64,000 bases of DNA from Thermoplasmata archaeon (GTDB taxonomy: Archaea; Thermoplasmatota; Thermoplasmata; Thermoplasmatales; Thermoplasmataceae): NCBI GenBank assembly GCA_021820525.1, contig JAKADM010000007.1:1-64000 (forward strand), in the 5' to 3' direction. The notes below the pieces were generated by a model. That model worked only from the letters and a program-made list of their open reading frames with translations. It was not told where the DNA came from and ran no database searches. Below are positions 8,112-51,125 of this stretch, in pieces. Positions within the stretch are counted from its first letter, which is position 1, and each line of letters starts with the position of its first letter. A program made the position numbers and the translations under genes.

Positions 8112-8507
8112 ATGGATTTACCAACAGTGAATGAGAAAATATATCCCTATCTGCTCATATTATCTGCATTATCCCTGTCTGTTGGAGGGTATTCCCTTTA
8201 CGCAGGAAAACTTGTACCTGTTTTCCTCACCTATCTTACAATTTTTGCCCTGGCTGTAATCCTTATCCTGGCATTTTTAATGATGAAAAAAATGAATTAT
8301 AAACTCAAAGTTGCCGGCCTGATTCTTGGCATTCTTGGAATTGCACTTTCACTGAACCCTTCCCATATTTCTGCCCTTCTAAACATCGGAAAAAGCCCCT
8401 TTCTCACCATTGCTGATATCACAATGATAACTGGTTTTTTCCTATTTCCAGGAATATATATAGTGTTGTTTTTCTATGAGGCAGTTAATGGGGGCGATAA
8501 ATATTAA
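8112..8507 (+). CDS. Small four-helix membrane protein, unknown function
   Basis: 131 residues with about four transmembrane segments (starting near residues 12, 32, 65 and 100) and little else; the polar parts are a short N-terminus (MDLPTVNEKIYPY), a lysine-rich MMKKMNYKLK turn and an acidic C-terminal tail. I do not recognise the family. The start is an ATG about 28 bases after a ttcataaaat TATA-like box. Its last 20 bases overlap the nucleotidyltransferase, which suggests co-expression and perhaps a link to a membrane glycan or lipid step, but this rests only on position. Confidence 0.65.
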   Translation: MDLPTVNEKIYPYLLILSALSLSVGGYSLYAGKLVPVFLTYLTIFALAVILILAFLMMKKMNYKLKVAGLILGILGIALSLNPSHISALLNIGKSPFLTIADITMITGFFLFPGIYIVLFFYEAVNGGDKY

Positions 8508-9216
8508 CGGCCTGATTACTGCCGCCGGACTGGGAACAAGGTCAGGGCTTGATGGGAAGTTCAGAAAGGAGATGCTTGCGCTCTATGATTATAGAGAGGG
8601 AAGGCTTGTACTGAGGCCAATAATCGACATGGTAATTTTCAGGATGTGGAATGCTGGCGTAAAAAATATAGGAATTGTATTGAATAGGAATGATGGAATC
8701 ACGGGTGAATATGTAAAAAGGGAATATCCAGATATTGAAATTTTTTATCAGGAGAAGCCCAGCGGTTTCGGAGACGCCATTTTCTGTGGAAGGGAAATGC
8801 TTGATAAAAGTTGCATTGTCAATGCAGGGGATGGCCTGATCCTCGATCCAGCTTATTATGTAAGGATGACAGGAAGCAGGGAATCAAGATTGACACTCTT
8901 TGAGGTTGAAAATCCGTCAAGGTATGGAAATGCCATGATAGATGAAGAAAGGAAAATGGTCATAGAGGTCAGGGAAAAGCCTGAAAAGCCACTCTCAAGG
9001 TATGCCTTGGCCGCCATTTACTTTTTTAGAGAACCCTTCAAGGAATATGTATCAACATCACGCACAGAATTTACAGAATACATACAGAATGCAATTTCAT
9101 CAGGTTATCCCCTGAGTTATAGCATCATAGATAAAAGGGAATGGATTAGCGTTGGAAATGTTGAAAAATATGTAGAATGTGTTGAAAAAACTTATAAATA
9201 TTTTAAAAAAGATTAG
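8488..9216 (+). CDS. Sugar-phosphate nucleotidyltransferase (GalU-like)
   Basis: About 242 residues of the NTP-transferase (GT-A-like) fold, which joins a sugar-1-phosphate to an NTP. Seen: the nucleotide loop LITAAGLGTRSG with an FRKEMLAL substrate segment, EKPSGFGDAIFCG (base-binding), and NAGDGLIL where the metal aspartate normally sits (usually GDD/GDN). This arrangement looks like UTP-glucose-1-phosphate uridylyltransferase, but the protein is shorter and lacks a hexapeptide domain. The product sugar nucleotide is not determined. The track start is 8476; the ATG at 8488 places the loop at the usual distance. Overlaps the membrane protein gene upstream. Confidence 0.82.
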   Translation: MGAININGLITAAGLGTRSGLDGKFRKEMLALYDYREGRLVLRPIIDMVIFRMWNAGVKNIGIVLNRNDGITGEYVKREYPDIEIFYQEKPSGFGDAIFCGREMLDKSCIVNAGDGLILDPAYYVRMTGSRESRLTLFEVENPSRYGNAMIDEERKMVIEVREKPEKPLSRYALAAIYFFREPFKEYVSTSRTEFTEYIQNAISSGYPLSYSIIDKREWISVGNVEKYVECVEKTYKYFKKD

Positions 9217-9221
9217 AAATT

Positions 9222-10676
9222 TTACTTCATTATTTTCCTGTATGCTTCTGAACCAACCAGTGCCAGTATTACAATGATTATTCCACCTATGGCACCATAG
9301 CTGTAATACAAAAGCCCAGGTATCTTTGAAAATCCAACGTTCTCCTGAAGTTCTGAAAAGTACATTGTAACATTTCCTGAGGAAGAGGATGTTTCATAAC
9401 CGGATGGTGCAAATACGGTGTAGTTATAAGTGCCTGTCATAACAAGGAATCCTACGAATTCTCCTGTTGTGTTGTTGTACATATTTCCAAGTTCAATGCC
9501 CCATTTGCTTCCATTGGGGAGCCCGTTCTCATTGAATAAAACCCAGTTATAGGTATTGTTCTGGAACTGGTAAGTCATATTTTCATAGCCTGAAATGGTG
9601 TTATTCATTGTTCCGCCGAACATCACAATTGTGTTGTTTGCACCATATGTGGAAATAGCCTGCCCATATTCCGGGGATGGTGATGCAATATGGAGGTTAA
9701 CCCACTCAGCCATGGAATTAAATATATATGTGCTGTTTGATGGCATTCCATTGCTCATTACTCCTCCATAGAGGAGGGTGAAGTTGTTGAATTTAAAGTA
9801 ATCAAGTGAAGCAAAGGCCATAGCCGGTGGGCTGTTTGATGATGATATGTTCATCCATTTCATGGAGGTTGTGTTCAGTACATATGTGTAGTTACTGTAT
9901 TTCCCGTTATATCCGCCATAATAGAGTATGTTCCCATTGGGAAGGGGGCTTGCAGCCATCCCTTCCATTGCCATGGGGGCAGTTCCATTAACCTTCAGGC
10001 GGCTCCAGGAATTATCCTTGAACAGCCATGTGGAATTTGAGTATCCCTTTGCAGTCATTCCTCCAAAGAGAACAATTCCTCTGAGGATAGGAGAATAGGC
10101 CATTGTTGTGAATGCCCTGGGTGAAGGGGCAAGGGTCAAACCCTTTAAAGGTGTCCATGTCAGGCCGGTAAATATCCATGTCTGATTGAAATATGTTCCA
10201 TTGTTAATTCCGCCAAAGAGGACAATGCTGTCGCCTCTTGGATAGTATGCGGTGGATGAACCTGCCATCTGTGGTATGGAACTCTGAGTTGTGAGTTTTG
10301 ACCATGTTCCTGATTCATATGTCCATGTCTGGTTTGAAAAAACCTCTGTATTCTTGTACATCACTTTGCCGCTGTTGTTATAACTCATATTTACAATGGA
10401 CTGGCCACCAAACATCACCACCTCCTTGGTAGGTTCGAAGCATGCCATTGTGCTGTTGCTCATTGGTGCCGGGCCTGAACTCCCTGTGTAATTCATCCAT
10501 TGATACTTATAAACTGTACTGTTATAAGCATAGCTTGGACTTGCAACTGGCCTCGCACCGACCGTTGCCGGCACACCTGCCTGAAAAAAGGTGGCTGCAA
10601 AAACAATAACAGTCATAATCGTTATGCCTGCCACCATCCATTTCCTGAAGCTGTTTGACTTTAACTTTGGAGACAT
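9222..10676 (-). CDS. Kelch-repeat cell-surface protein
   Basis: 484 residues. A basic N-terminus followed by a hydrophobic stretch (WMVAGITIMTVIVFAATFF, about 13-31) acts as signal peptide or anchor. Then come roughly five to six Kelch repeats (for example VMFGGQS, IVLFGGINNG, IVLFGGMTAKG, ILYYGGYNG, TLLYGGVMSNG, IVMFGGTMNN), each followed by a W-containing strand. They should form a beta-propeller outside the cell. After it is a small domain with FNENGLPNGSKWGIELG, common in surface proteins of acidophilic archaea, and a C-terminal transmembrane helix with a basic tail. It is rich in N-x-S/T sequons, so it is probably heavily N-glycosylated. Ligand unknown. Confidence 0.85.
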   Translation of the reverse strand: MSPKLKSNSFRKWMVAGITIMTVIVFAATFFQAGVPATVGARPVASPSYAYNSTVYKYQWMNYTGSSGPAPMSNSTMACFEPTKEVVMFGGQSIVNMSYNNSGKVMYKNTEVFSNQTWTYESGTWSKLTTQSSIPQMAGSSTAYYPRGDSIVLFGGINNGTYFNQTWIFTGLTWTPLKGLTLAPSPRAFTTMAYSPILRGIVLFGGMTAKGYSNSTWLFKDNSWSRLKVNGTAPMAMEGMAASPLPNGNILYYGGYNGKYSNYTYVLNTTSMKWMNISSSNSPPAMAFASLDYFKFNNFTLLYGGVMSNGMPSNSTYIFNSMAEWVNLHIASPSPEYGQAISTYGANNTIVMFGGTMNNTISGYENMTYQFQNNTYNWVLFNENGLPNGSKWGIELGNMYNNTTGEFVGFLVMTGTYNYTVFAPSGYETSSSSGNVTMYFSELQENVGFSKIPGLLYYSYGAIGGIIIVILALVGSEAYRKIMK

Positions 10677-10740
10677 TGACCTTAAATTGTTAATTCATTA
10701 ATAAATATTCCATAAAATTTAGGATTTATAAACACCCAGT

Positions 10741-11913
10741 TCATTTTAGACCCCTGCTCTCCTTCCAGTATGTTCTGGGCATAACCGCATCCTTAAATCT
10801 GATTGCATTCTCCCTGAACCTGTTCACATCTTCAATAATCTTCTCAAGTTCTGCTCTGAGATTTCCTGATGGTTTATATCCAAGTTCCTTCAGTTTTTTA
10901 TGCTCTGGGTTATAGTAATGCTGATCCTTTTCAACCCTTGGGTTTTCCACGTGCTTTATTTCTACCTCTCTCCCAAGGATCTTCTCTCCATTCTCTTTCA
11001 CGTATGCTGCAAGTTCGTTTATTGAATAATGTTCATCAAACTGGTTGTAAACCCTGTATTCTCCAATTTCAGGTGGTTTGTTCAGGCCAAGCATCAGGCA
11101 GCTGATGCTATCTTCGAGAGAAAGAAAACCTCTTCTCTGTTCGCCCTTTCCATAGGCTGTGACTGGCATTCCAAGAACAGCCTGCACACAGAATCTGTTG
11201 AGAGCAGTCCCCCAGACCTCATCTATATCGAATCTCGTATAGCTTTCTGTCTCTTTGATCTCTTTAGTACCTGTGCCATATACTACACCCTGCATTACAT
11301 CGGTTATTCTCAATCCCCAGACCCTGTTTGCAAACATAAGGTTGTTTGTATCATGAACCTTGCTCCAGTGGTACCACGAACCGGCAAACTTTGGGAACGG
11401 AAGTGTATCTTTCCTGCCACGGTATTCAATTTCGAAAAAACCTTCCGGGATGTCAATGTTCGGAGTTCCATACTCACCCATTGTTCCCAGTTTCAGGAGG
11501 TGAGCCTTTGGTACAATGTCTTTCATCGCATAAACCAGGTTTATTGTTCCCCCCATATTCTGTATGAGGGTTTCTCTTGCCTGTTTAAGTCCAATCATGG
11601 AGTATGGAGCAGATCTTTGCTCGGCTAGATGGACAATCGCATCAGGTTTTTCCCTCTCCATGAACATATAAACAAAATCCGGGTCATTTATATCTCCCTC
11701 GTAGAACCCAATGGTTTTGCCATAGAATTTTGAAGCATCCTTGATCCTATCCTTCATATCCTTTATGGGAGTTATGGATCCAGAACCCACTTCACTTACT
11801 CTTGCTCTTGTATAGAAAGAATCAACTCCTACAACATCATGACCTTCCTTAAGGAGTCTCAGTGCAAGGGGCCAGCCAATATAGCCATCAATACCAAGAA
11901 TAACTACCTTCAT
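10741..11913 (-). CDS. agl3: UDP-sulfoquinovose synthase
   Basis: An extended SDR (about 390 residues) that makes UDP-sulfoquinovose from UDP-glucose and sulfite, like plant SQD1 and Sulfolobus Agl3. Seen: the NAD loop GIDGYIG near the N-terminus, the catalytic Thr in LGTMGEYG (about 144), the YHWSK Tyr/Lys pair (about 181/185), and the long insert typical of SQD1 (SGSITPIKDM ... QRSAPYSM). In archaea the product goes to N-glycans of surface proteins rather than, or besides, lipids. The ORF track adds seven residues; the ATG at 11913 (MKVVILG) sits at leaderless distance from a TATA-like box. It lies between the sequon-rich Kelch protein and a glycosyltransferase. Confidence 0.88.
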   Translation of the reverse strand: MKVVILGIDGYIGWPLALRLLKEGHDVVGVDSFYTRARVSEVGSGSITPIKDMKDRIKDASKFYGKTIGFYEGDINDPDFVYMFMEREKPDAIVHLAEQRSAPYSMIGLKQARETLIQNMGGTINLVYAMKDIVPKAHLLKLGTMGEYGTPNIDIPEGFFEIEYRGRKDTLPFPKFAGSWYHWSKVHDTNNLMFANRVWGLRITDVMQGVVYGTGTKEIKETESYTRFDIDEVWGTALNRFCVQAVLGMPVTAYGKGEQRRGFLSLEDSISCLMLGLNKPPEIGEYRVYNQFDEHYSINELAAYVKENGEKILGREVEIKHVENPRVEKDQHYYNPEHKKLKELGYKPSGNLRAELEKIIEDVNRFRENAIRFKDAVMPRTYWKESRGLK

Positions 11914-46095: not shown

Positions 46096-46431
46096 TCAAT
46101 TGCCTGAAACAAGAGTAAACAAATCCTTCAGGCTTTCCTTTAATTTTAAACCCTCCTCTGTGAGAAAGTATGTTATGTGGTTATCATATGTGGCCCTCTC
46201 CACAATACCCATTCTCTCCATTTCCCTGAGCCTTAAAGATATGGCCCTTGCACTTGCATCAGGAATGCCCTTTCTTATCTGATTAAATGTGGCCATCTCC
46301 CTGCTTCCTGAAAGCATTCCCATAATGAGGATTGTATATTTCTTCCCAAGCATGGAAAATATGGGAAGGGAAGAATCAACGCATATGAGGCTCTCACCAT
46401 ATCTTATCATGCAGGCCTTTTCCTCATCCAT
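46096..46431 (-). CDS. HxlR-family winged-helix regulator
   Basis: 111 residues, a single HxlR-type DNA-binding domain. Seen: LGKKYTILIMGMLSGSREMATFNQIRKGIPDASARAISLRLREMERMGIVERATYDNHITYFLTEEG, i.e. helix, recognition helix with many arginines, then wing, the family pattern. Members bind as dimers, and some respond to oxidants through a cysteine (two near the N-terminus here: Cys7 and Cys17). It is just upstream of the rml operon on the same strand, so it may control it or the divergent HEPN-like gene. Start ATG. Confidence 0.82.
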   Translation of the reverse strand: MDEEKACMIRYGESLICVDSSLPIFSMLGKKYTILIMGMLSGSREMATFNQIRKGIPDASARAISLRLREMERMGIVERATYDNHITYFLTEEGLKLKESLKDLFTLVSGN

Positions 46432-46515: not shown

Positions 46516-47058
46516 GTGATTGAATTGAAGTTAGAAACGTTCTTTTCAGACGTGGTTAAGGGTGAAATGTACAGGGACATAAAGATGTGCATTGAAAACA
46601 ATTCTCCCGTTATGGCTGTAATTGCCATATTTGCCTACGGAGAAATGGTTGGCGGAATAGGAAGGATTCTGGAAGGGGAGGACGAAAGAATCGTTTTCGG
46701 CTCGGGTCAGTCAAATAAGAACTTTGCATCATTTATCAAATGGGCAGGCAAACCCTACAGGGATCTGGACCCAAGGGAAACATACAGAATTATAAGGGGC
46801 GGATTATTCCACAGATATTTCATAAGAAATCCTGCTGTCATAGAGATAAACCCTGAAGATCCATCTGCCATAATGGAATATGGAATGAAGAGGGGAATAT
46901 GGCTTGAAAGGGACAGGGTCGTCATTAACGTGAACCAGCTATTTAAGGATATGAAAAAAACTGTTAACAGAATGAAGATAAAAATGAAAAAGGAAAATAT
47001 GGGAAATTTTGAAATTGCCCAGAATCTCGGAATGGAGTTTTTAATTATTGGCAGGTGA
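46516..47058 (+). CDS. HEPN-like domain protein, unknown function
   Basis: 180 residues, helical. In the middle it has FASFIKWAGKPYRDLDPRETYRIIRGGLFHRYF. The Arg-X4-His (RGGLFH) at the end of a helix, preceded by a conserved aromatic and a Tyr, is the pattern of a HEPN ribonuclease-like domain. The lysine-rich C-terminus (MKKTVNRMKIKMKKE) could bind nucleic acid. HEPN proteins are often toxins or RNA-cleaving defence parts, usually with a nucleotidyltransferase partner; none is adjacent here. GTG start; the end overlaps the convergent cyd-operon gene. See findings. Confidence 0.6.
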   Translation: MIELKLETFFSDVVKGEMYRDIKMCIENNSPVMAVIAIFAYGEMVGGIGRILEGEDERIVFGSGQSNKNFASFIKWAGKPYRDLDPRETYRIIRGGLFHRYFIRNPAVIEINPEDPSAIMEYGMKRGIWLERDRVVINVNQLFKDMKKTVNRMKIKMKKENMGNFEIAQNLGMEFLIIGR

Positions 47059-47721
47059 GTTTGTCCTGTTTGGGTTTGCCTTAAAGAGTTTTGAAAAGTC
47101 CACAAAGCCAAGCCAGAGGAGCACAATCCCCAGAAATTCCGCATAATAAAGGAATGCAGGGAATGCCGCTATGTAAAGTGTTCCTGCAATGCTCACAACT
47201 ATAACTCCAAGGATTATGCTTATAAGTTTCCTGTCCGCTTTCTTCCTGTACGATATGGCAGATATTATTATGAGAAGAGCTGCTGCCGGAAATGTAACTA
47301 TGGATGATGTAATTACAAGACTGAGCGGAAGAAGGCCTGCTACAACTCCAGTTATTATCATATTGGGAATTGGGGTCAGGGCAAGAGATATGGCAAGTAT
47401 TATGTCTGATATTATGGAATAGGCAACATATGATCTGATCAGAGTTGAGTTATTGAAAAGATATACCGATCCCAGTGCAAGCATCTCCACAAGTATGGCC
47501 ACAAGAAACAGGTAGGAATCCATCAATAGGTTATTGTAAATGCTGGCAGAAAATAGTATCTCAAGCAGAACTGATATGGCAAATATCCACAGACCTGTTG
47601 ACCAGAACAGGAAGGGCATTTTTCCTGTTCTCACAAGATTTGTCGTGATAAGTATCGCAAGAAGTATGGTCAGGAGGAAAATTATTATGGTGGATATAAA
47701 AACTATGGGGTAAAACATCAT
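47041..47721 (-). CDS. Seven-helix membrane protein of the cytochrome bd operon
   Basis: 226 residues with about seven hydrophobic segments and almost no extramembrane parts except a short basic tail. I do not recognise it: it is neither CydX (about 35 residues) nor a CydC/CydD ABC protein. Its start overlaps the cydB stop by four bases (ATGA), so it is translated with cydAB. A role as an accessory subunit, or a haem or quinone handling protein, is inference from position. No conserved histidine pair is obvious for haem ligation. Its 3' end overlaps the HEPN-like gene. Confidence 0.7.
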   Translation of the reverse strand: MMFYPIVFISTIIIFLLTILLAILITTNLVRTGKMPFLFWSTGLWIFAISVLLEILFSASIYNNLLMDSYLFLVAILVEMLALGSVYLFNNSTLIRSYVAYSIISDIILAISLALTPIPNMIITGVVAGLLPLSLVITSSIVTFPAAALLIIISAISYRKKADRKLISIILGVIVVSIAGTLYIAAFPAFLYYAEFLGIVLLWLGFVDFSKLFKANPNRTNSPANN

Positions 47722-48686
47722 TCCACCTCATCTGCACCTGCATTAATCCTCTTTTTAGAAGAGTTTACCCACACTCTGAAGAAAACGATTGACATTATGA
47801 GAAGAAGGGTACCTCCTATGAGCGTTGCGTAGAATATCTGTGTCTGCATTGCGGAATCATTCAGGAGTGAATTCACATCTATTGTCTTTGAACCAAGGTT
47901 TGGGTAAACGGAATAAAATAGAAGGAACGCCGCGGCTGCAAGAAATCCCTGGAACGTGATCTTATCTGATATGTATTTTCTAAGCTTTGGAACCATGTTT
48001 ATCACGGGTATGCTGAGTGTCACAAGTCCTGAAAGCATCATTATGTAAAGATTGCTGTAATCGTTTATGGCAATGAATGAAGCCCCTGCAATGATTAAGC
48101 CAATAACTGTGACTGCAAGGGAAAGGATGCTGTTCACATCAAGTTTATAGAATATGGATGAAAGACCGAAAAGAGCAATGGCACTTCCTATGATGAAACC
48201 ATCATCGGGAAGATAGGATACGAAGGATGCAAGGTTAAATGTTCTGGCATTTATATTCAATCCCCTCCCGCTCATGAGGGAAGTGTATATGACGAGAACA
48301 AAGAAACCAAGGATGTATGTGAGTATGGCATAGGTTGAATAGAGGGTTTTCCTGCTTATATTCCACCTGTTTTTGAATATGAACTCCGCAGATATTATGG
48401 AGAGGTTTCTCAGAATGTATATTACGATGAATATGAGTATGTACGAAATATAGGAATAGGCCAGAATCGGAAGGGCATTGGGGATAAGTGCCTCAACATT
48501 CACCACATAGAATACAAAAAATGTACCTGTGATCTCCCAAATCGGTACAAGATAGTAGAACACCTTTCTCCTGCTCTCCTCATACTTGAATATAATTGCC
48601 GAGGCGGCCATAAGTTCGGTCGATATGATTGCAAAGAACATTCCAAATATTATTCCGTTAAGCAAAACTTCAACATTAAACGCCAT
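47718..48686 (-). CDS. cydB: Divergent CydB-like subunit of cytochrome bd
   Basis: 322 residues with about eight or nine transmembrane segments. It lies where cytochrome bd subunit II should be, directly after cydA. The usual CydB markers (for example the DGFDLGVG stretch near the N-terminus) are absent; the best counterpart of the VWDGNEVWL region is VPIWEITGTFFVFYVV (about residue 47). It is therefore a fast-evolving or alternative subunit II, assigned by position and topology. The ATG overlaps the cydA stop by one base. It is expected to stabilise the haem-bearing CydA. Confidence 0.72.
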   Translation of the reverse strand: MAFNVEVLLNGIIFGMFFAIISTELMAASAIIFKYEESRRKVFYYLVPIWEITGTFFVFYVVNVEALIPNALPILAYSYISYILIFIVIYILRNLSIISAEFIFKNRWNISRKTLYSTYAILTYILGFFVLVIYTSLMSGRGLNINARTFNLASFVSYLPDDGFIIGSAIALFGLSSIFYKLDVNSILSLAVTVIGLIIAGASFIAINDYSNLYIMMLSGLVTLSIPVINMVPKLRKYISDKITFQGFLAAAAFLLFYSVYPNLGSKTIDVNSLLNDSAMQTQIFYATLIGGTLLLIMSIVFFRVWVNSSKKRINAGADEVE

Positions 48687-50035
48687 CAGAGATCACCTAC
48701 CCTTTCAATCTCCTTCTCAACGGATGAGTTTTTCAAAACCTTTGCTGAAAAGTAGAATGTGAACGGAACCACAAGGCAATAGAATATAATAATGCCTATT
48801 CCCAGAGGGAGCACCGAGGGAGATGTGTTTGCAGCGGAGGCCACTGTCATAACATGATTGTAAATTATGTAGGGCTGCCTTCCAACCTCATCAGTCACCC
48901 ATCCAGAATCGTATACAATTTCCAGAAGAATACCTGAAATAACCATGGAGTAAAGGTAGAATTTGCCCGATATGTCCTTCTTTAACACAATCCTTAAGAA
49001 GAGAAGAAGGGCAAAGAGGCCAACAAGGGCTCCACCACCAACCATTACATCAAAGGTAAGATGGATGAACAGTGGGGGCCACTGTGACTGTGGGAATTGT
49101 GTCAAATATGGAACTGCCTGATGGGAATTGAATGAAAGAAACATTATGAGGCTCTGAAGGCCAGGAACTGCGATATAATACTGTGGAACACCATTTATAA
49201 CTATTCCCCCTAGTTTTTCGGCGGCAGGTATGTGATTGTGGAAATTCAGTTCAATTGCAGCATACTTTAGTGGCTGCAGTGAATAGAGCATCCTCATGGA
49301 TTCGTCTCCCGTGAGCCCTGCAATTCCTACTGCAATGAGGCCAACGATGGCTGCAACCTTGATGGATTTCATATAAATACTTCTGGTTATGTCTGTCTTC
49401 GCCTTCAAGTAGTTTATTGCGAAATAGGCGAGAAGGGCAAAAGAGCCAGCTGCAAGAGTTGCTGGTACAACGTGACCTATCTCAACTGCTGCGGACGGGC
49501 TGAACATGGCAGCAAGGGGGTTTACGCCTGAAACAGTCCCGGTTGATATATATTCGGGAATGTTAAATCCTGATGGGGTGTTCATCCATGCATTTACCAT
49601 GGTTATGAAAACTGCAGAGAGAAGTGTTCCGGCTGCAACAAACAGGGAAAGAGCCCAGTGCTGGTACCTGTTTTTGAAATAATCCCAGTAATAAACATAC
49701 AGTACCAGGCTTATGGATTCAAGGAAAAAGGCAAAAACTTCATAGTAAAAGGGAAGTATGTCTATTTTTCCCACAAGCACCATAAAGTTAGGCCACAGTG
49801 AAAAAAGCTCAATGGCAAGCACGGTTCCACTTGCAGTTCCTATGGCAAAAAATATTGCTAGGGCCTTTGAAAGCCTTCTTGCCATGACCTCATATTCCTT
49901 ATCCTTCAAATATATGCCCAAAAACTCTATTACACTCATAATTACAGAGATTGCAATTGTAAGCGTAACAATAAGAATATGAGACCCCAAAGTGAAACCC
50001 ATCATAAAACGATCAAAGTTAATTATGCTGGTCAT
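48686..50035 (-). CDS. cydA: Cytochrome bd quinol oxidase subunit I
   Basis: 449 residues, nine transmembrane helices. Takes electrons from quinol and reduces oxygen to water with haems b558, b595 and d. Seen: the first haem histidine in FTLGSHILIV, YYEVFAFFLES (the b595 glutamates), MVNAWMNTPSG, VEIGHVV (b558 histidine), the quinol-binding loop GDESMRMLYSLQPLKYAAIEL (conserved Lys and Glu), DVMVGGG (b558 methionine) and TDEVGRQPY (conserved Arg). The Q loop is short. So the redox core is complete. It is preceded by an SD sequence, AGGTGAT, rare in this window. Confidence 0.94.
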   Translation of the reverse strand: MTSIINFDRFMMGFTLGSHILIVTLTIAISVIMSVIEFLGIYLKDKEYEVMARRLSKALAIFFAIGTASGTVLAIELFSLWPNFMVLVGKIDILPFYYEVFAFFLESISLVLYVYYWDYFKNRYQHWALSLFVAAGTLLSAVFITMVNAWMNTPSGFNIPEYISTGTVSGVNPLAAMFSPSAAVEIGHVVPATLAAGSFALLAYFAINYLKAKTDITRSIYMKSIKVAAIVGLIAVGIAGLTGDESMRMLYSLQPLKYAAIELNFHNHIPAAEKLGGIVINGVPQYYIAVPGLQSLIMFLSFNSHQAVPYLTQFPQSQWPPLFIHLTFDVMVGGGALVGLFALLLFLRIVLKKDISGKFYLYSMVISGILLEIVYDSGWVTDEVGRQPYIIYNHVMTVASAANTSPSVLPLGIGIIIFYCLVVPFTFYFSAKVLKNSSVEKEIERVGDL

Positions 50036-50039
50036 TCAT

Positions 50040-50046
50040 ATCACCT
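50040..50046 (-). promoter_or_regulatory. Shine-Dalgarno sequence of cydA
   Basis: Minus-strand AGGTGAT, four bases before the ATG at 50035, matching seven bases of the archaeal anti-SD. Most genes here seem leaderless, so this decides the start and indicates a leadered message. Confidence 0.6.
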
Positions 50047-50098
50047 AAACATTGTTGTTTATGTAATTAAGATTTAGCCTGACTGGTAAGGGAAAACA

Positions 50099-50108
50099 CT
50101 TAAATATC
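50099..50108 (-). promoter_or_regulatory. Probable TATA box of the cyd operon
   Basis: Minus-strand gatatttaag in the 96-base gap between mqnD and cydA. A start about 26 bases on gives a leader of roughly 40 bases with the SD above. Confidence 0.35.
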
Positions 50109-50131
50109 ATAAAAAAAATTATTGGGAAATT

Positions 50132-50947
50132 TTAAACAATTTCCATCTTAAACTCAGGTAGAAGCTTCATATCCCTTGCCTTCTTATAATAAATTTCCAG
50201 AGCTTTTCTACCTTTTTCCCCAAAATCGACGGACAGCTCATTCACATACATCTTTATAAATTTAGTCTCAAGTTCAAGATCCTCGTATCTGGCATATTTC
50301 ATCGCATACCTTGCAGCCTCTTCCGTATGTCCCATGGCATATTTTATGGAATTTTCAAAATCTTTTATGTACATGCCTATGGTCTCCTTTCCAAGGCTCT
50401 TTCTTATGGCGTTGAAGCCGAGAGGTATGGGAAGATCACCAGCATAGGCTTTCCACTTTTCGTACAGATCAACAACCTTGAGCAAACCCTTATTTTGAAA
50501 TGTGAGCTGCTCATCGTGTATTACAATACCCGCATCTATCTCTCCCTTTAACACTGCATCGGGTATGGTGTCAAATCTCATTGGCCTTATATTTGCATCC
50601 TTGTTGACAAACATTTTGAAGAGAAGTTCTGAGGAAGTCCCTGATCCCGGGCTTCCAACTATGGCCTTTGAAAAATCTACCTGGCTTTTTGCCACAACCA
50701 TGGGTCCATATGAAATTCCAAAGCTTGCACCTGACCTTGTAAGGGCATATACTTCATTAAAGGATGCATAGGCATTTGCTGAAATGGCAGTCACGTCATA
50801 CATGCCACTTCTTGCCTCCTGATTCAATGTCTCAATATCCTTTATTATCTGTTCATATTCCATTGAAGTCTCTATTTTTCCCGTGATCATTGCATAAAAC
50901 ATAAATGCATCATCCGGGTCTGGGGTATGTGCTACCGTTAGTTTCAT
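50132..50947 (-). CDS. mqnD: 1,4-dihydroxy-6-naphthoate synthase (futalosine pathway)
   Basis: About 271 residues of the MqnD family, a periplasmic-binding-like fold that converts cyclic dehypoxanthine futalosine to 1,4-dihydroxy-6-naphthoate in menaquinone synthesis. Seen: the N-terminal AHTPDPDDAFMFYAM (the MqnD signature S/TPDPDD), VTAISANAYA, GSPGSGTSSELL, DAGIVIHDEQL and GLNAIRK-like PLGFNAIRKS. It lies directly upstream of the cytochrome bd genes, which need menaquinol (or thermoplasmaquinol). The start may be the ATG at 50965 or at 50947; MKLTVAHTPDP at 50947 matches the family's N-terminus. Confidence 0.93.
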   Translation of the reverse strand: MKLTVAHTPDPDDAFMFYAMITGKIETSMEYEQIIKDIETLNQEARSGMYDVTAISANAYASFNEVYALTRSGASFGISYGPMVVAKSQVDFSKAIVGSPGSGTSSELLFKMFVNKDANIRPMRFDTIPDAVLKGEIDAGIVIHDEQLTFQNKGLLKVVDLYEKWKAYAGDLPIPLGFNAIRKSLGKETIGMYIKDFENSIKYAMGHTEEAARYAMKYARYEDLELETKFIKMYVNELSVDFGEKGRKALEIYYKKARDMKLLPEFKMEIV

Positions 50948-51125
50948 GAGTTGACATGTTTTCATCGCATAAAAACCGATATCAATTAATTTTTATTTTT
51001 TCACTTATAAATGAAATCATGAGAAAAAATTCATTCTCTGTGCAAAGAGACTAATATTTAAACCTGTGAGATGGCGTAAATTTTATTTATATCTAAACTG
51101 TATTAGGATTTTCCTGCGTGATTTT

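Follow-up and report, generated by a model that had tools for sequence, protein, structure and literature searches.

Cytochrome bd is an oxygen-consuming enzyme, and archaea of the Thermoplasma lineage are acid-loving. To our knowledge, the extra subunits of bd oxidases known so far are single-helix ones only. CydX, CydS and CydH(Y), single-helix proteins of 3-4 kDa, are extra membrane proteins needed in some bd oxidases for assembly and stability (PMC8951039). The bd oxidase of Cuniculiplasma has been published as two subunits only (PMC5155288), and the excerpted account of Lutacidiplasmatales names cydA and cydB alone, assigning that CydA to qOR3 and inferring a transfer of cydA from Thermoplasmatales (PMC9287336). 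The window, meaning the whole 64,000-nucleotide stretch of DNA that was analysed, comes from a Thermoplasmata archaeon genome of 1.54 Mb, and its CydA is 99% identical to that of a Cuniculiplasma MAG, the nearest named relative found. Here, cydA and cydB are followed by a third gene, c2, whose 226-residue product with seven predicted helices differs from the single-helix proteins above and, as the sequence-only reading had held, is not CydX, a single-helix protein of fewer than about 50 residues. No counterpart of the CydS of Geobacillus-type bd is known at the window locus, and no description of c2 was found in the literature that could be searched.

The genes mqnD, cydA, cydB and c2 had been read as lying on one strand (47041-50965), and the open reading frames bear this out, including an overlap of 1 base between cydA and cydB and one of 4 bases (ATGA) between cydB and c2 (Table 1). 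The cydA-cydB-c2 arrangement is not a matter of chance, given that the trio recurs in many relatives. The 3’ end of mqnD lies 96 bases upstream of cydA. At the opposite end of the locus, a 180-aa open reading frame is convergent with c2, overlaps its 3’ end and is kept in two relatives (G006 and G010); a family search with it gave no significant match, and an HxlR-type regulator gene adjoins it.

Table 1. Positions of the genes and intergenic elements at the bd oxidase locus of the window.
Feature	Position	Strand	Description
mqnD	50132-50965	-	277 aa; PF02621 E 1.5e-70; futalosine-pathway menaquinone gene
T-run (sense strand) after mqnD	50111-50118	-	possible archaeal terminator
TATA-like box ATATTTAAG	50099-50107	-	about 65 bases upstream of cydA; from intergenic alignment
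cydA (cytochrome bd subunit I)	48686-50035	-	449 aa; PF01654 E 4.9e-98
cydB (divergent cytochrome bd subunit II)	47718-48686	-	322 aa; PF02322 E 1.5e-4, under curated cut-off
c2 (third gene)	47041-47721	-	226-aa seven-helix membrane protein; no family above cut-off
180-aa open reading frame	46516-47058		convergent with c2
HxlR-type regulator gene	46096-46431		adjoins the 180-aa frame

The position of mqnD had suggested an oxidase linked to the synthesis of its own quinone. However, another PF02621 gene sits on a different contig (C10), together with two radical-SAM genes (TIGR03700-like, similar to MqnE/MqnC), so that the genes of this pathway, which serves the whole quinone pool, are dispersed, mqnD among them. 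The T-run after mqnD is incompletely conserved in G010, while the TATTTAA box before cydA is conserved in two to three relatives, and mqnD is probably a neighbour in a transcription unit separate from that of cydA. Adjacency of mqnD and cydA was seen only in the close relatives of the window and one genome of a different genus (G020), the latter indicating that it is not unique, though rare. With the other mqn genes elsewhere, a promoter-like box in front of cydA and an adjacency this rare, the proposed quinone link is weak.

Comparison with the bd oxidase of Geobacillus thermodenitrificans (5doq) points to a familiar enzyme. The PF01654 match of CydA is full-length (residues 9-436 of 449), the protein aligns over its full length with 5doq_A (phmmer E 2.2e-65), and the haem and quinol-site ligands claimed to be present could all be located in this alignment, with H19, E99, E106, H188, K257/E262, M331 and E383 retained. 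Full-length CydA with these residues and the P-x-W-E motif of CydB are thus common to both enzymes, whereas archaeal CydB is about 15% identical to its bacterial counterpart and is without D-F-G-x-G. The DGFDLGVG stretch is indeed missing, as had been noticed: in the first helix, S-T-E-L-M takes the place of D-G-F-D / D-F-G-x-G, and its glutamate (E24) is invariant in 18 archaeal sequences. The invariant residues of the archaeal CydB group also include P48, W50 and E51, which form a P-x-W-E motif that lines up with the bacterial one, and we take the E51 motif to correspond to the W-D58 region in E. coli, where D58 represents the end of a water chain in the structure and has a proton-relay role (PMC6853902). 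Because the CydB alignment is ambiguous around E24, we can only infer that this residue stands in for the bacterial acidic D25. PF02322 matches of CydB-group members reach E values as low as 3.8e-8, the weaker match of window CydB staying below the gathering score; the archaeal group profile matches 5doq_B (E 0.0012), and hhalign against a bacterial CydB profile gave E 2.6e-10 over 264 columns. The top Foldseek PDB matches of a low-confidence CydB structure model (pLDDT 56) are CydB chains, a result that is not independent because bacterial CydB rows sat in the alignment of the model. Taken together, these alignments argue that CydB is a genuine if divergent CydB, homologous over most of its length, in which a motif has degenerated but homology has not been lost, and that the locus encodes a cytochrome bd of the ordinary kind, though a divergent one, with a canonical CydA.

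By contrast with CydB, no known family could be assigned to c2. Its seven helices are predicted by a structure model of low confidence (mean pLDDT 62), and the charge distribution of the window’s c2 suggests that it is probably oriented N-out/C-in. The models of c2 and CydB were built from the sequences of the window and related loci, and rest on shallow alignments because of this restricted input. Searching c2 against Pfam and NCBIfam gave no match above the curated cut-offs, the best being YwiC (E 0.041, 14.6 bits against a cut-off of 25), and family searches with 29 c2 members found no recurrent family. With nothing above cut-off and no family recurring, both YwiC and a known transporter were ruled out for c2, so that the unrelated transporter family against which the sequence-only reading had weighed its own proposal did not turn up. 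Comparison with CydB by hhalign gave a probability of 1-2%; c2 is thus not homologous to CydB, and a fragment or duplicate of CydB was ruled out as well. Foldseek with the c2 model returned solely insignificant rhodopsin/GPCR-like matches (best E 0.13). No conserved histidine is seen among aligned c2 homologues, and haem binding through histidine is therefore unlikely. Apparent c2 fusions of about 650 aa (G259 and G267), overlapped or abutted by an FMN dehydrogenase gene on the opposite strand, were taken for GC-driven open frames. A search of viral contigs found no c2.

Among 41 relatives, c2 is present in 16 of the 23 with a CydA homologue and in none of the 18 without one (p 2.6e-6). For the window’s family in a class-wide sample, the counts were 35/46 genomes with cydA versus 0/16 without (Fisher p 4.8e-8, uncorrected for kinship; two of the 35 c2 genes are fragments). 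All 16 cydA-less genomes of the family possess a haem-copper oxidase, while no haem-copper oxidase was detected in five genomes that carry c2 (G016, G117, G170, G227 and G249), indicating that, in this family, the presence of c2 goes with bd and not with aerobic life generally. A general aerobic-respiration gene was thereby ruled out in this family, genomes with only a haem-copper oxidase being without c2. The gene is missing from 11 of the 46 bd genomes, including the single-contig G110 and G144, and it is mostly absent from the order’s genomes with the CydAA’ form. In family f4, three CydAA’ genomes, which have two CydA-like genes and lack CydB, each contain an unlinked and only distant c2 relative (L099/L102/L104 in G040, G027 and G031); haem-copper oxidase was not found in G027 and G031. 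The cydA-less genome G002 retains a remnant of c2 interrupted by six stop codons (G002:C89:58329-58601), as expected if c2 decays once bd is lost.

Conservation of the trio in Thermoplasmata, a check that the sequence-only reading had proposed, turned out to be broad, with c2 recurring beside cydAB in many genera. Its absence from that position in all relatives, the other outcome that would have counted against that reading, is thereby contradicted. Both cydA-cydB-c2 and c2-cydA-cydB orders are seen, often with small gaps or overlaps: c2 lies 3’ of cydB in the window, G006, G010, G005 and G195, and 5’ of cydA in G009, G023, G319, G033, G036, G347, G370, G278, G275, G220 and G156, the gap in the latter usually being about 0 or an overlap. 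One gene separates c2 from cydAB in G382, and many c2 copies in other genomes of the window’s family (f1) are unlinked to cydAB. In families f14, f15 and f27, seven of the nine genomes with both cydA and c2 (G183, G191, G212, G269, G290, G397 and G118, but not G048 and G070) have c2 less than 600 bases from cydAB, the genes being arranged divergently, convergently or in tandem. Most c2 relatives outside the order stand apart from cydAB, in dissimilar neighbourhoods (propionyl-CoA carboxylase/methylmalonyl-CoA mutase, 2-oxoacid:ferredoxin oxidoreductase, SufBD, UbiA). Family members also occur in genomes of other families without any cydA, and what these proteins do biochemically in general may therefore not be specific to bd.

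Several related loci deserve separate mention. The cydAB most similar to that of the window (L083, G009:C1:523000-541000, at 8461-10796) is frameshifted into pieces and without c2; G009, a single-contig genome of the same genus, has a second cydAB that is intact and accompanied by c2. At L123 (G359:C10, 1501-2741), an intact c2 stands with no cydA and with a cydB that carries an internal deletion; either the locus has decayed or the assembly is in error. In four genomes, the operon of cydAB or c2-cydAB has immediately upstream of it a gene of about 190 aa with a ribbon-helix-helix-like segment at the N-terminus (L084:7875-8465, L077:7602-8171, L094:7908-8492 and L085:7377-7961), in divergent orientation in three of them; two of the four match RHH_5 (E about 0.003). 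Its product is a candidate bd regulator that is absent from the window’s locus.

We find, then, a nameless protein family with members repeatedly beside bd oxidase genes. With gene identities, linkage, co-occurrence and the facultative presence of c2 established, the reading that we consider slightly better than evenly probable is an ordinary quinol-oxidising bd with a co-transcribed c2 that serves bd specifically and yet is not required by every bd. In this model, cydA, cydB and c2 would be transcribed together, and CydA with three haems and the sequence-divergent CydB would form the quinol oxidase. The c2 protein would most likely aid assembly or stability of CydAB in the membrane; alternatively, it may bind CydAB loosely as an auxiliary protein, physical contact between c2 and CydAB being presumed. 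The role proposed is like that of CydX or CydS, via an unrelated and larger protein.

The histories of c2 and CydA bear on how tight this association is. In the c2 tree, five of the seven linked copies from f14, f15 and f27 form one clade, the G191 and G118 copies falling in other clades. CydA of f15 branches inside Thermoplasmatales CydA, whereas that of G118 branches outside it, and f15 thus pairs a Thermoplasmatales-nested CydA with a c2 that is not so nested. Three c2 lineages in these families and the nested f15 CydA point to repeated independent pairing of c2 with bd. Outside the order, this pairing has arisen about three times, a recurrence difficult to account for unless the two are functionally tied. 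CydA of Lutacidiplasmatales, to which the qOR3 label belongs, has been inferred to come from Thermoplasmatales by transfer (PMC9287336), and CydA of f14/f15 nests in the window’s order in our tree; if f15 is Lutacidiplasmatales, c2 was probably recruited locally and not co-transferred with cydA. At linked loci within the order, the correlation of distances with those of CydA was r 0.95 for CydB and r 0.31 for c2, the c2 distances being noisier because c2 is shorter.

If c2 were a stoichiometric third subunit defining a distinct archaeal bd type, its overlapping operon position, its bd-specific distribution in the family and the repeated pairing would all be accounted for. However, its absence from the 11 bd genomes, single-contig ones included, its weak tracking of CydA distances and the mismatch between the nested f15 CydA and its c2 partner make this reading improbable. 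The same absence, the weak tracking, the possible local recruitment and the free c2 relatives in genomes without bd favour a facultative accessory over an obligate subunit, and we regard a facultative accessory as the more likely status of c2. We are equally doubtful that bd oxidases of Thermoplasmatota have c2 as a true multi-helix subunit, taken up on at least three separate occasions out of a larger family of seven-helix membrane proteins.

A small-molecule sensor or transporter (of haem, quinone, thiol or lipid) for conditions in which bd is used, acting without bd contact, also seems unlikely. The receptor- or rhodopsin-like seven-helix topology of the weak model and the free c2 copies in other metabolic contexts would fit such a role, and haem handling by c2 is made plausible by the report that Cuniculiplasma is without a complete recognised haem pathway (PMC5498576). 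By contrast, family and fold searches gave no significant match, and genomes with haem-copper oxidase also need haem and yet are without c2 when they are without bd. Inherited synteny without function would explain the arrangement common to close relatives, but it is very improbable in view of the several gene orders and strands, the independent pairing in distant families including f15 and f27, and the co-occurrence of c2 with bd even where the genes are unlinked.

Overall, the conserved extra membrane gene of the sequence-only reading has stood, and the new bd type with its own quinone synthesis has not: CydA is canonical, CydB homologous with its W-E motif in place, and c2 absent from 11 of 46 bd genomes of the family. 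In some members of the Thermoplasma lineage, bd is the sole terminal oxidase found, and the haem supply of the lineage is reported as unexplained. Because the lineage has cultivated members, the tie between c2 and bd is testable. A seven-helix partner that recurs in archaea and is specific to bd, if confirmed, would point to an alternative way of building or tuning such an oxidase.
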